Origin: Pinisolibacter aquiterrae
GTDB taxonomy: Bacteria; Pseudomonadota; Alphaproteobacteria; Rhizobiales; Ancalomicrobiaceae
Direction of reading: 5' to 3'
DNA: 64,000 bases
Assembly: GCF_019160155.1 (NCBI RefSeq)
Contig: NZ_JAFNIH010000019.1
Span: 372,001 to 436,000, forward strand
The notes under the pieces were generated by a model. That model did no database searches, had not been told where the DNA came from, and saw only the letters and a list, made by a program, of their open reading frames with translations. The position numbers and the translations under genes are program-made. Shown here piece by piece: positions 52,409-58,687 of the stretch. Every line of letters begins with the position of its first letter. Position 1 is the first letter of the stretch.

Positions 52409-53317
52409 TCACATGCAGGGGTCGCGCCGCTTGCGTCGCTCGAACCAGCCGACCAGAAAATCGACGAAGACCCGCACCTTGGCCGAGAGATGGCGGCGAT
52501 GCGGATAGACCGCGTTGACGGTCAGGCCGGTCAGCTCGAACTCCTCGAGCAGGGCGACGAGCCGCCCGTCCTGGATCGCCCGCGCCACCGCGAACAACGG
52601 CACCCGCGCCACCCCGACCCCGGCGATCGCCGCCTCGGCGGTCACCTGCGGTCCGTTGACGTTCATGCGCGGGCTCACCGCCACCACCACCCGCTCGCCA
52701 TCGACGATGAAGGGCCAATGGTGCCAGTTGCGCGCGTTGGTGTCGCAGATCGCCGGCAGTCCCAGGAGATCGTCCGGCCGCGCCGGGCGCCCATGCGCCT
52801 CGATCCACGCCGGCGCGGCGCAGGTCACCACTCGAAAGGCGGCGAGGCGCCGGGCGATCAGGCTCGAATCGGCCGGCTCCGAGACCCGGATCGCCACGTC
52901 GAACCCCTCCTCGACCAGATCGACGAAGCGATCGTCGAGCCTCAGATCGATGGTGATGTCGGGATGCTCGGCCATGAACTCGACCACCGCGCCCCCGAGC
53001 TCGGCGTCGCCATAGGAGCGCGGCGCCGAAATCCGCAGATGCCCACGCGCCTGAGTGTGGGTGTCGCGCACCGAGGCGGTGAGGTCCTCGAGCCGCTGCA
53101 GGAGATCGACCGCCTCGCGGTGATAGGCGATGCCGGCTTCCGTCGGCGACAGCTGCCGCGTCGTCCGATTGAGCAGGCGAACCCCCAGTTCGTCCTCGAG
53201 ATCGCGGACGTATTTGGAGAGCAACGCCTTCGATTTGCCGGCCTTGCGCGCGGCGGCCGAAAACCCGCCGGCATCCACCACCTGCACGAAGGCCTGCATG
53301 CGCGTCAGCGTGTCCAT
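52409..53317 (-). CDS. LysR-family transcriptional regulator
   Basis: The 302-residue protein has the LysR helix-turn-helix at its start (MQAFVQVVDAGGFSAAARKAGKSKALLSKYVRDLEDELGVRLLNRTTR) and a type 2 periplasmic-binding-like sensor domain (DVAIRVSEPADSSLIARRLA). The DSSLIARRL pattern belongs to the CrgA-like subgroup. ATG at 53317 is chosen because GGAGA lies at the right distance. The gene is divergent from the ornithine decarboxylase leader with about 190 bases to that promoter, and in tandem with the DUF1007-NicO pair; its target is not known. Confidence 0.9.
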   Translation of the reverse strand: MDTLTRMQAFVQVVDAGGFSAAARKAGKSKALLSKYVRDLEDELGVRLLNRTTRQLSPTEAGIAYHREAVDLLQRLEDLTASVRDTHTQARGHLRISAPRSYGDAELGGAVVEFMAEHPDITIDLRLDDRFVDLVEEGFDVAIRVSEPADSSLIARRLAAFRVVTCAAPAWIEAHGRPARPDDLLGLPAICDTNARNWHHWPFIVDGERVVVAVSPRMNVNGPQVTAEAAIAGVGVARVPLFAVARAIQDGRLVALLEEFELTGLTVNAVYPHRRHLSAKVRVFVDFLVGWFERRKRRDPCM

Positions 53318-53504
53318 CACCGTCTCCGCTCACCGAACGATCCTCGGGAAATCCTACTCGATCGTCTCCGATTTGCCACCCCCGAGGCGCCCGGTGCCGG
53401 CCTCGCGCGCGCTCCGCCGCGCCCACGCGGATTCCGTGAATTCCCTCGATCGGCCCGTGGCTTGCCCGGGGGTGGAAAATCTCGGTCCGTCATCGAGAAT
53501 TCAC

Positions 53505-53533
53505 TTGTGTCACCGGGCGAACGGCCCTATATC
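53505..53533 (+). promoter_or_regulatory. Sigma-70 type promoter of the ornithine decarboxylase leader
   Basis: TTGTGT (53505-53510) and TATATC (53528-53533) are separated by exactly 17 bases. A start point near 53540 would place the first hairpin of the leader about ten bases into the transcript. The untranslated leader would then be about 540 bases. Confidence 0.6.
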
Positions 53534-53539
53534 CCGGCT

Positions 53540-53830
53540 CGCCCAAATTCGCACGTGCCTGTGGCTACGTGCCGGTCGATGACGTTCCAGGGACAAGAGG
53601 CCTGGGAATTCCATCGGGGCAACCGGCAGCCGGAGTAACCGGCGCACCTCGTGACTCACACGGGGGACGTGGCTTGAAGCAACGACGTAGAGGGCTTTTT
53701 TGGTCTCTGCCGGCTCGTCCAAAGGCCGGGGTTACTGAAGAGGCAACTACTTCCTTGCCGGCGTGCGGACGGGTCCTCCCATCCAAGCCATGGCAGCAAC
53801 GTCCGTGATCGAGCCGCTCCGCGTCTCGTG
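53540..53830 (+). ncRNA. Structured 5' leader of ornithine decarboxylase, probable speF leader motif
   Basis: The leader is AT-richer than the genes around it and full of complementary segments. They include GCACGT/ACGTGC (53551-53556 and 53567-53572), TTCCAGG with CCTGGGAA near 53585-53608, GGCAA/TTGCC (53742-53759), and CGGAC/GTCCG further on. A six-T run lies at 53696-53701. Rfam describes a speF leader upstream of ornithine decarboxylase in alphaproteobacteria, and position and gene fit. I assign it by context rather than by alignment. From 53831 to the ATG at 54081 I see no gene, only a small hairpin at 54034-54049 (CCGACG, loop GCAT, CGTCGG). Confidence 0.65.
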
Positions 53831-54080
53831 ACCGGAAGGGTCCGCGCCCCTCTCCTCAGCGCGGGTTCGGGTCGGCGTCACACCGCCGGCTCATCGGGTG
53901 CTCGTCACCGTCGTTCGGTCGTCTCCAAAGCGATCGTCGGCGCGGGATGTGCTCCCCGAACACTTTCGCGCGTCGCCGCGCGGAGGAAACGCCCGAGAAC
54001 GGCCGAAAGGCCCGATGCGGGGATGACCGAACGCCGACGGCATCGTCGGCCTGCTTGGAAGACCCGGGAAGGACCCCGCC

Positions 54081-55211
54081 ATGACCGCTCGCATCCGTGA
54101 ATTCCTCCGCACCCGCCGTCCCGATGGTCCCTGCCTGGTGGTCGACCTCGACGTCGTGCGCGAGAAATACATGTCCTTCGCCAAGGCGATGCCCGACACC
54201 CGCGTCTTCTACGCGGTGAAGGCCAACCCGGCGCCGGAAGTGCTGGCGCTGCTCGCCGAGATGGGCTCCTGCTTCGACACCGCCTCGGTCGCCGAGGTGG
54301 AGATGGCGCTCGCCGCCGGCGCCACCCCGGACCGCGTCTCCTATGGCAACACCATCAAGAAGGAGCGCGACATCGCCCGCGCCTTCGAGCTGGGCGTTCG
54401 CCTCTATGCGGTCGATTGCGAGGCCGAGGTGGAGAAGGTCGCCCGCGCCGCTCCCGGCTCGAAGGTCTTCTGCCGCATCCTGTCGGACGGCGCCGGCGCC
54501 GAATGGCCGCTGTCGAAGAAGTTCGGCTGCGTGCCGGAGATGGCGCCGCGCGTGCTCGAGCACGCCCATCGTCTCGGCCTCGAGGCCTATGGCGTGTCCT
54601 TCCACGTCGGCTCGCAGCAGCGCGACACCGGCGCCTGGGACGCCGCCGTGGCGTCGGCCGCCGGCATCTTCCGCGAGATGGCCGATCGCGGCATCCACCT
54701 GCGCATGGTCAACCTCGGCGGCGGCTTCCCGACCCGGTATCTGAAGAACGTGCCGGCGGTGCAGGCCTATGCCCAGGCGATCTCCGACGCCATCCTGACC
54801 CATTTCGGCAACCACGTCCCCGAGACCATCATCGAGCCGGGGCGCGGCATGGTGGGTTCGGCCGGCATCATCAAGACCGAGGTCGTGCTCATCTCCAAGA
54901 AGAGCGACGACGACGAGGTCCGATGGGTCTATCTCGACATCGGCAAGTTCGGAGGTCTCGCCGAGACCATGGACGAGGCGATCCGCTACCCGATCAAGAC
55001 GGCCCGCGACGGCGACGAGATGAGCGCCTGCGTGCTGGCCGGCCCGACTTGCGACAGCGCCGACGTGCTCTACGAGAAGGATCCCTACCTCCTTCCCGTC
55101 AGCCTCGAGATCGGCGACGAGGTTCTGATCGAGGGCACCGGCGCCTATACGACCACCTATTCGGCGGTCGCCTTCAACGGTTTCGCGCCGCTGAAGAGCT
55201 ACGTCATCTGA
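54081..55211 (+). CDS. Ornithine decarboxylase (PLP-dependent, alanine-racemase fold)
   Basis: The 376-residue enzyme converts ornithine to putrescine and may also use lysine, like other bacterial group IV decarboxylases. The PLP-binding lysine is K47 in YAVKANP. FDTASVAEVEMAL, SFHVGSQQRD, NLGGGFPTRY and EPGRGMVG follow the fold, and C324 in GPTCDSAD is the catalytic cysteine supplied across the dimer. The long structured leader suggests regulation by polyamine supply. The putrescine made is a substrate of the homospermidine synthase encoded 2 kb downstream. Confidence 0.95.
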   Translation: MTARIREFLRTRRPDGPCLVVDLDVVREKYMSFAKAMPDTRVFYAVKANPAPEVLALLAEMGSCFDTASVAEVEMALAAGATPDRVSYGNTIKKERDIARAFELGVRLYAVDCEAEVEKVARAAPGSKVFCRILSDGAGAEWPLSKKFGCVPEMAPRVLEHAHRLGLEAYGVSFHVGSQQRDTGAWDAAVASAAGIFREMADRGIHLRMVNLGGGFPTRYLKNVPAVQAYAQAISDAILTHFGNHVPETIIEPGRGMVGSAGIIKTEVVLISKKSDDDEVRWVYLDIGKFGGLAETMDEAIRYPIKTARDGDEMSACVLAGPTCDSADVLYEKDPYLLPVSLEIGDEVLIEGTGAYTTTYSAVAFNGFAPLKSYVI

Positions 55212-55327: not shown

Positions 55328-55888
55328 GTGATCCACGTTCGTCCCCATCTCGCCGTCGCCACCCCCGCCTTCCACGTCCGTGACGAGATCGACACCGATT
55401 TCGTCGCGCGCGAAGCCCTGCTCGACGCCGCCTTCGGCCCGACCCGCTTCGCCAAGACCTGCGAGCGCCTGCGCGAGGGCCGCCGCCCCGCCGAGGGTCT
55501 CGCGCTGGTCGCGGAGGGTGCCGACGGCCGCCTGATCGGCACCGTCCGGTTGTGGCACGTCGAGGCCGGATCGGCCGGCGCCGCCCTGATGCTCGGCCCC
55601 ATCGCGATCGATGCCGAGGCCCGTTCGCTCGGCCTCGGCGGCGCGCTGATGCGGGTCGCCATCGACCGCGCCCGGCGCTTCGGCCATCGCGCGATCGTTC
55701 TGGTCGGCGACGCGCCGTATTACACCCGCTTCGACTTCACCCCCGAGGCGACCCTCGGCCTCGACCTGCCCGGCCCGGTCGATCGCACTCGGTTCCTCGG
55801 CCTCGACCTCGTCGACGGCGCGCTTTCCGGCGCCTCCGGGATGGTCGAAGCGACCGGCCCCTTCGAGGCGATCGCCCGCGCGGCGTAA
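55328..55888 (+). CDS. GNAT-family N-acetyltransferase (YhbS type)
   Basis: The 186-residue protein shows the GNAT fold with GTVRLWHVEAGSAGAALMLGPIAIDAEARSLGLGGALMRVAIDRARRFGHRAIVLVGDAPYYTRFDF; the RSLGLGGALM segment is the acetyl-CoA site. This YhbS-type protein lies between ornithine decarboxylase and homospermidine synthase, an order I recall from other Rhizobiales. Acetylation of polyamines is possible but inferred. A dozen C-terminal residues carry the LSGASGMVEATGPF tail. Confidence 0.88.
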   Translation: MIHVRPHLAVATPAFHVRDEIDTDFVAREALLDAAFGPTRFAKTCERLREGRRPAEGLALVAEGADGRLIGTVRLWHVEAGSAGAALMLGPIAIDAEARSLGLGGALMRVAIDRARRFGHRAIVLVGDAPYYTRFDFTPEATLGLDLPGPVDRTRFLGLDLVDGALSGASGMVEATGPFEAIARAA

Positions 55889-57169: not shown

Positions 57170-57228
57170 GCGACACGTGTTTCCCGGGTCGCCCATGCGA
57201 CACGATCTTCCCGGGTCGCCCATGCGAC
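57170..57228 (+). repeat. 27-bp direct repeat upstream of homospermidine synthase
   Basis: A 27-base unit beginning GCGACACG occurs at 57170-57196 and again at 57197-57223, followed by another partial copy. A 21-base part (57181-57201 and 57208-57228) is identical. The second copy ends 28 bases before the ATG, so the repeats probably lie in the leader or at the promoter. Confidence 0.8.
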
Positions 57229-57256
57229 CAGCCATCAACCCCAGGAGTTGAAACGA

Positions 57257-58687
57257 ATGAAGACTTGGCCGATCTACGGCGAAATCACCGGCCCCATCGT
57301 GATGATCGGCTTCGGCTCGATCGGCCGAGGCACCCTTCCCCTGATCGAACGCCATTTCAAATTCGACAAGTCGCGTCTCGTGGTGATCGACCCGTCCGAC
57401 GCCGACCGCAAGCTCGTCGACGAGCGCGGCTACGCCTTCGTCCATCAGGCGGTCACCAAGCAGAACTATCGCGAACTGCTGCTGCCCTTCCTCACCGCCG
57501 GCGAGGGCCGGGCCTTCATCGTCAACCTGTCGGTCGACACCGGCTCGCTCGACCTGATGAAGTTCGCCCGCGAGAATGGCGCGCTCTATATCGACACCGT
57601 GGCCGAACCCTGGCTCGGCTTCTATTTCGACAAGAATGCCACCACCGCCGACCGCTCCAACTACGCCCTGCGCGAGGCGGTGCGGACCGAGAAGGCCGCC
57701 TCCCCCGGCGGCCCTACGGCGGTCTCCTGCTGCGGCGCCAATCCCGGCATGGTCTCGTGGTTCGTCAAGGCGGCGCTGCTCGACATCGCCCGCGACACCG
57801 GCGCCGAGGCCGAGAAGCCCACCACCCGCGAGGGCTGGGCGAAGCTGATGCAGTCGCTCGGCGTCCACGGCGTCCACATCGCCGAACGCGACACTCAACG
57901 CTCCAGGAACCCGAAGCCCGCGAACGTCTTCGTCAACACCTGGTCGGTCGAGGGCTTCATCTCGGAAGGTCTGCAGCCGGCCGAACTCGGCTGGGGCACC
58001 AAGGAGACCTGGAAGCCCGACAACGCCCGCTCCCATGAGAAGGGCTGTCTGGCGGCGATCTATCTGCTCCAGGCCGGCGCCAACACCCGCGTCCGCACCT
58101 GGTGCCCGACGCCCGGCGCCCAGTACGGCTTCCTCGTCACCCACAACGAGGCGATCTCCATCGCCGACTACTACACCGTCGGCGACAAGGCGGCCCCCGA
58201 GTTCCGCCCGACCTGCCACTACGCCTACCATCCCGCCAACGACGCCGTCCTGTCGCTGCACGAGATGTTCGGCGCGGAAGGCCGCAAGCAGCCGGCGCAG
58301 CACATCCTCGACGAGCACGAGATCGTCGACGGCATCGACGAACTCGGCGTGCTCGTCTACGGCCACGCCAAGAACGCCTATTGGTACGGTTCGCAGCTCT
58401 CGATCGAAGAGACCCGCGTTCTCGCCCCCTACCAGAACGCCACCGGCCTCCAGGTCTCCTCGGCCGTGCTCGCCGGCATGGTGTGGGCGCTCGAGAACCC
58501 GATGGCCGGCATCGTCGAGGCCGACGAGATGGATCACGAGCGCTGCCTCGAGGTCCAGACCCCCTACCTCGGCCCGGTCTGCGGCTACTACACCGACTGG
58601 ACCCCGCTGGAAGGACGCCCCGGCCTCTTCCCCGAGGACATCGATACCGCCAACCCCTGGGCCTTCCGCAACGTTCTGGTGCGCTGA
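57257..58687 (+). CDS. hss: Homospermidine synthase
   Basis: The enzyme makes homospermidine from two putrescine molecules (or putrescine and spermidine) with NAD. The 476 residues match the bacterial family length. The NAD-binding motif GFGSIGRGT lies near residue 16, followed by [11 protein letters not shown], the [30 protein letters not shown] segment, [15 protein letters not shown], and [23 protein letters not shown] precedes the ATG at 57257. The pathway is ornithine to putrescine by the decarboxylase at 54 kb, then homospermidine here, a typical triamine of Rhizobiales. A strong terminator follows. Confidence 0.97.

Follow-up and report, generated by a model that had tools for sequence, protein, structure and literature searches.

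speF has been known as an orphan leader since 2005, and ar45 as an orphan small RNA (sRNA) since 2007. As described in the portion of Corbino et al. (2005) drawn on here (PMC1273637), the extended speF element is conserved from the start site on and consists of a stem that carries a branched insert, a long, bulged stem-loop of about 80 conserved nucleotides whose outer pairs do not vary, and more conserved blocks before the start codon to which that portion assigns no structure. The same portion reports that six pathway compounds, including ornithine, putrescine, and spermidine, did not bind Agrobacterium tumefaciens speF in tests on RNA spanning −400 to +3. According to excerpts of the later reports, the 5′ part of the extended speF element turned up in separate work on S. 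meliloti as SmrC45, whose 5′ end was mapped and whose 3′ end was placed at a terminator U-run solely by inspection (PMC2780559); SmrC45 is co-precipitated by Hfq (PMC2848018); the ar45 RNA is catalogued as a 148-nt trans-acting sRNA (PMC7143759); the overlap of SmrC45 with speF was recognised by Valverde in 2008 (PMC2573895); and ar45 and speF gave separate Northern signals in Bartonella bacilliformis, that of speF exceeding 700 bases (PMC7717549). Our literature search, covering few subscription papers, found no function or structure of speF or ar45 beyond this cited work, in line with the remark in an earlier note on this DNA that the mechanism of speF is unresolved. Here, we report an analysis of an ornithine decarboxylase (ODC) leader in 64,000 nucleotides of Pinisolibacter aquiterrae DNA (the window), together with related leaders, whose sequences suggest that ar45 and speF, separate in Rfam, are one element with two competing folds.

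A search of the whole of Rfam gave two matches above cut-off in the window, ar45 and, adjoining it, the speF leader (Table 1). The ar45 match scores above the curated cut-off of RF02347 (40) over the full model, and the speF match, the only one in the genome, scores above that of RF00518 and stands upstream of a COG0019-type ODC, the two marks of membership in that family. The earlier note had named an alphaproteobacterial speF leader, correctly as to family, and expected the match at 53550 to 53820; the positions are those of Table 1, and the first 160 nt of what it read as speF are the catalogued sRNA ar45, which it had missed. Its 540-nt leader with an own promoter ahead of ODC was confirmed: the ar45 match begins at 53541, 53541 to 54080 makes 540 bases, and ODC starts 236 nt beyond the end of the speF match. 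The promoter that it described (TTGTGT, 53505 to 53510; 17 bases; TATATC, 53528 to 53533) is present in the sequence and, shifted one base 5′, reads CTTGTG-N17-CTATAT, near the S. meliloti sigma-70 consensus CTTGAC-N17-CTATAT (as excerpted from PMC2873474); CTTG is kept at this position in 88 of 95 leaders examined. A scan with an E. coli-type consensus found no promoter here. The many complementary blocks noted earlier exceed chance over the whole leader (z = −2.9; 0 of 100 dinucleotide shuffles as stable) and over its ar45 part (z = −2.5), but 53797 to 54083 reached only z = −1.4. The nearest solved relatives of the ODC are lysine/ornithine decarboxylases. ODC, the GNAT acetyltransferase, and homospermidine synthase form a compact cluster (ornithine to putrescine to homospermidine), and a LysR-type regulator (52409 to 53320, minus strand) lies divergent from the ODC leader.

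Table 1. Features of the ODC leader and downstream genes (positions in the window)
Feature	Position	Strand	Evidence or remark
Promoter CTTGTG-N17-CTATAT	53504–53532	+	Sequence; CTTG conservation; S. meliloti consensus
ar45 (RF02347), proposed first fold of transcript	53541–53699	+	58.4 bits, cut-off 40, model 1–148 of 148
P1 5′ strand GCCC, very 5′ end	53541–53544	+	Partner GGGC 53692–53695 beside U-run; fold of 53541–53701
Block I, J1 5′ strand (UUCGCAC/GCC)	53548–53559	+	Partner 53760–53769; fold of window core
Insert hairpin, loop ACAAGAGG	53587–53605	+	Loop repeats AAGAGG that pairs with U-run in PU
Block II GCAACGACGUAG, PX 5′ strand, also in ar45 fold	53679–53690	+	Covariation with 53747–53758
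GCUUUUUUGGU, contains U-run ending ar45; PU 5′ strand	53694–53704	+	11-bp complement at 53734–53744
speF leader motif (RF00518)	53708–53844	+	54.7 bits, cut-off 37, full model
Hairpin P3, UCCAAA loop	53709–53729	+	5/5 pairs with two-sided changes; 96.1% of cells paired
ACUGAAGAGGC, PU 3′ strand	53734–53744	+	Complement to U-run strand
CUACUUCCUUGC, PX 3′ strand	53747–53758	+	Covariation
GGCGUGCGGA, J1 3′ strand	53760–53769	+	Conservation; window core fold
Hairpin P4, GGA-c-GGG...CCC-a-UCC	53767–53784	+	4/5 pairs with two-sided changes
Hairpin IV, loop UCUCCANNG (anti-SD-like)	53918–53934	+	Stem covariation
Probable Shine-Dalgarno (SD) GGGAAGGA of ODC	54066–54073	+	Sequence; inference
Ornithine decarboxylase (ODC)	54081–55211	+	Orn_Arg_deC_N, 190 bits
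GNAT acetyltransferase	55328–55888	+	Between ODC and homospermidine synthase
Homospermidine synthase	57206–58687	+	4plp, E 1.2e-247

Across the order (297 genomes), ar45 matched 127 genomes, and R1, a covariance model spanning speF and the 3′ part of ar45 as one joint core, matched 147; when the two lists were compared, all 127 ar45-positive genomes were among the R1-positive ones, and 20 more carried R1 without ar45. At class level (385 genomes), R1 matched in 16 and RF00518 in 15, with 11 of the 16 R1 matches outside the order Hyphomicrobiales. ODC was present in 110 of 110 ar45 loci fetched (17 of the 127 were not among these) and adjoined 24 of 24 R1 loci. It was likewise found in all 206 sequences collected, of which 80 had been fetched by ODC itself and prove nothing on this point, 110 by ar45, and 15 by speF. 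These sequences, mostly from Hyphomicrobiales, comprise 205 loci plus the window segment (which overlaps locus L001) and gave 203 usable leaders, 187 of them distinct; 101 representatives were chosen from the distinct leaders by k-mer clusters, of which 83 form alignment A1 (18 left out) and 90 the folding survey (11 unparsed). Outside the order, one divergent leader (L221, G301) gave a weak R1 match (40.5 bits) and adjoins an ODC gene of 68% identity. Three minimal leaders (L087, L088, and L122) have block I 237 to 250 nt before the start codon and an ar45 insert that is nearly gone; they keep blocks I and II despite the shrunken insert.

An unguided covariation scan of concatenated blocks from 94 leaders placed the hairpin IV stem, PX pairs, P2, and P3 at the top, with PX columns ranking second and fourth among all column pairs. 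PX joins the two Rfam families, pairing GCAACGACGUAG of ar45 with CUACUUCCUUGC of speF; its outer GCAA:UUGC is invariant in all 83 aligned leaders, and its inner part varies (GUAG:CUAC, GGUG:CACC, GGAC:GUCU, and others). Own strands form a PX of at least 4 bp in 81 of 94 leaders, against a mean of 59 and a maximum of 69 in 2,000 re-pairings. Over A1, the structure scored 0.244; shuffles gave 0.125 (0 of 500 as high), and sliding gave no more than 0.097. PX column pair 25-97 is unpaired in 27 rows and pair 26-96 in 20, and by eye the GGA-type leaders pair one register off. PU, GCUUUUUUGGU with ACUGAAGAGGC, is a conserved 11-bp helix (at least 9 bp in 78 of 83) in which one pair occurs as U-G, U-A, or C-G and its neighbour as G-U or G-C. 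J1, block I with GGCGUGCGGA, reads CGCAC:GUGCG in 171 of 179 leaders; one leader (L114) is changed on both sides, from A-U to G-C, three (L009, L010, and L014) pair only after a shift of register, and in L122 pairing is poor. In the variant J1 clade, own partners had no clear energetic advantage over cross-paired ones, and because PU and J1 are nearly invariant, covariation there is thin. As drawn for the window, the first bases of P4 overlap the end of J1. P2, P3, P4, PX, and hairpin IV are supported by covariation, conservation, and linkage, and PU and J1 mainly by conservation. AAGAGG, the sequence that binds the U-run in PU, recurs in the insert of 35 of 98 representatives, versus 3.4% of shuffled inserts.

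Folding predictions differed with RNA length. At ar45 length, P1 exceeded a probability of 0.5 in all 90 leaders (1.00 in the window); in the core RNA it was near 0, and PX, PU, and J1 exceeded 0.5 in 83, 90, and 88 of 90, respectively. For the complete leader, the counts were 72 for PX, 88 for PU, and only 42 for J1. The three-way junction J1/P2/PX is the minimum free energy (MFE) structure of the window's own leader, and the ar45 fold, which closes against the same U-run, is incompatible with this predicted junction. The window values are length-sensitive: up to the ATG, PX reached 0.69, PU 0.94, and J1 0.70; with 15 nt more, PX fell to 0.02 and J1 to 0.01, with PU at 0.95. When the speF part was shuffled, mean P1 was 0.217 (above 0.5 in 6 of 91) versus 0.000 in native leaders. 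Because shuffled speF also lowers P1, the junction is specific and the fragility of P1 is not, and the idea that speF disrupts P1 specifically was weakened. No canonical intrinsic terminator (a G+C-rich local hairpin directly before the U-run) was found at the end of ar45, where the U6 is preceded only by the 4-bp long-range P1, nor was a tRNA-like element found. We infer that both states form in the cell and that regulation acts on whether the RNA ends at the U-run.

The reading that we prefer, at a chance slightly below even, is a single leader that refolds during transcription, with ar45 and speF as its halves and ar45 as its short product. The ar45-sized RNAs seen apart from speF in B. bacilliformis (PMC7717549) and S. 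meliloti (PMC2780559) agree with such a product. Once about 160 nt are made, the 5′ GCCC would pair with the GGGC that abuts the U6 run (P1), closing off an internal loop of almost constant sequence together with the variable branched insert; the end of transcription or an RNA cut at the U-run, indistinguishable here, would then release the sRNA ar45. Upon read-through, the speF half would capture the strands of the first state, block II pairing with CUACUUCCUUGC (PX) and the U-run with ACUGAAGAGGC (PU), while block I with GGCGUGCGGA (J1) would complete the junction J1/P2/PX, followed by translation of ODC; hairpin IV, whose UCUCCA loop complements a generic SD, may tune translation. Since the speF strands are made after the U-run, they could fix the read-through state but could not choose it, nor by themselves stop termination there. 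The choice at the U-run would lie in the ar45 fold and whatever binds there, with the conserved internal loop of the ar45 state as the likeliest sensor site. The insert loop ACAAGAGG, which copies the AAGAGG that binds the U-run, stands upstream and, speculatively, could act earlier.

If this is one refolding element, the question of the ar45 target and that of the speF ligand become one testable decision at the U-run, which would precede the first enzyme of putrescine and homospermidine synthesis. A more specific version, which we consider rather doubtful, is a bistable element in which a 5′ aptamer-like ar45 fold ending at the U-run competes with the read-through junction, which would take back the U-run and both invariant blocks, the ACAAGAGG loop of about a third of leaders possibly being a built-in antiterminator. 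Folding predicts that the RNA used in 2005 (−400 to +3) was trapped in the second state, and those tests would therefore have overlooked a ligand or protein specific for the ar45 state; if true, this gives a concrete reason why earlier binding tests, in which one fold was examined, may have failed. The earlier note called an ornithine- or polyamine-responsive element likely, which is unsupported in view of the six compounds that did not bind in the excerpted 2005 results (PMC1273637). Such sensing may nevertheless occur, as homospermidine is absent from that list and the gene cluster ends in homospermidine synthase.

The same observations give some weight to a classical metabolite riboswitch with an as yet untried ligand, e.g., homospermidine, and the P1/P2 internal loop as aptamer, a reading that we regard as unlikely: this loop is near-invariant, the downstream genes make up an ODC-GNAT-homospermidine synthase cluster, and homospermidine is not among the compounds in the excerpt of PMC1273637, while the six pathway compounds tested there on the full leader did not bind it. 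A ligand test of ar45 RNA alone was not found in our search (few subscription papers covered). Similarly unlikely is that an RNase cuts ar45 from the leader without attenuation, either RNase III within the near-continuous duplex PX+PU+P3 or RNase E at a free U-run. The missing canonical terminator and the position of the U-run inside an 11-bp duplex in the full RNA speak for cleavage; the S. meliloti authors, in the excerpted text, assign the 3′ end to the terminator U-run, though by inspection only (PMC2780559). Somewhat less probable again is that ar45, a trans-acting sRNA bound by Hfq, has an independent gene that just happens to lie before a separate speF leader, as the listing of ar45 as a trans-sRNA (PMC7143759), the co-precipitation with Hfq (PMC2848018), and the separate Northern signal in B. 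bacilliformis (PMC7717549), all known from excerpts, would have it. Against such a gene, ar45 lay away from ODC in 0 of 110 loci, its 3′ part covaries with speF, and one conserved promoter position precedes both halves; a fragment of the leader could nevertheless act in trans.

Several observations bear on whether the leader encodes a regulatory peptide. Gammaproteobacterial speF leaders use the leader peptide SpeFL, and an attenuator of this kind could draw on short ATG open reading frames (ORFs) in the window, e.g., 53579 to 53638 and 53791 to 53832. However, ATG ORFs of at least 8 codons are rarer than in shuffles (1.07 versus 2.61 per leader) and absent from 35 of 96 leaders; an SD-like site precedes 9 of 103, the ATG position is conserved nowhere, and the spacing of II and III occurs in all three phases. 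A GTG stands at block I+5 in 96 of 96 leaders, but the peptides (7 to 171 amino acids) look unrelated past their first residues. A SpeFL-like peptide is thus highly improbable and was rejected on conservation, no conserved upstream ORF (uORF) having been found.

Hairpin IV lies between speF and ODC, about 150 to 160 nt before the ATG, and has a 9-nt loop with a near-constant UCUCCA. Over 63 sites picked by the loop alone, its stem covariation reached 0.631; shuffles gave 0.197 (0 of 500 as high), and slid stems stayed at or below 0.227. These sites (alignment A2) are TCTCCA occurrences from 61 of the 101 representatives, with no stem required and leaders lacking TCTCCA excluded. Among 138 TCTCCA sites, 105 have a stem of at least 4 bp at loop length 9, against 0 to 13 at other lengths. 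A hairpin IV of at least 4 bp is present in 140 of 187 distinct leaders and absent in 47; exact TCTCCA loops number 98, versus 0.1% in shuffles. In the MFE structure of the window's own leader it is not formed, and a longer helix takes up its loop instead. The bases of the loop complement a generic SD, and the SD window is more complementary to it than two upstream windows (−4.4 and −4.6), as any purine-rich SD would be. Coevolution of loop and SD was rejected (own pairs, −7.20, versus permuted, −7.14 kcal/mol; P = 0.34; n = 94). Anti-SD pairing of loop IV is therefore possible but unsupported, and hairpin IV may contact the SD.

Between 53838 and 54060, close relatives (Siculibacillus and other Ancalomicrobiaceae) conserve GGGUUCGGGUCGG, CCCCGAACAC, and GGGGAUGACCGAACGCC, behind which comes a hairpin that varies. 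In this post-speF stretch, each of the two CCGAAC copies has its complement in GUUCGG. A family-specific second switching domain is conceivable there. At 54023 to 54035, 58 nt upstream of the ODC start (ATGACCG...), ATGACCGAACGC looks similar to that start but is not in frame with it; it is kept in several close relatives within the conserved pieces just described and may be a decoy start or a coincidence.

Compared with the gammaproteobacterial SpeFL leaders, this locus likewise places ornithine decarboxylase under leader control, whereas no conserved uORF was found here. The SAM-II riboswitch of S. meliloti metZ (sRNA RZ; excerpted from PMC9373788) is also a leader in which termination, as predicted, would yield a small RNA; it differs in RNA fold, gene, and its known ligand. 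With ar45/SmrC45/SmelC706 (RF02347), the locus shares the first 159 nt, the 5′ end, and the end at the U-run; ar45 is treated in print as a separate sRNA, whereas here it is the 5′ half of an ODC leader in 110 of 110 ar45 loci. With speF as described in the portion of Corbino et al. drawn on (PMC1273637), it shares the sequence, the place before ODC, conservation from the start site, the stem with a branched insert, and the bulged stem-loop. Going by that text description, the long bulged stem-loop is probably PX+PU+P3, into which it is resolved here; our model adds J1 as well as competition from the ar45 fold, and it places hairpin IV in a stretch to which the same portion gives no structure. 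The element itself was already known; the joined architecture, the three-way junction, and hairpin IV are new.
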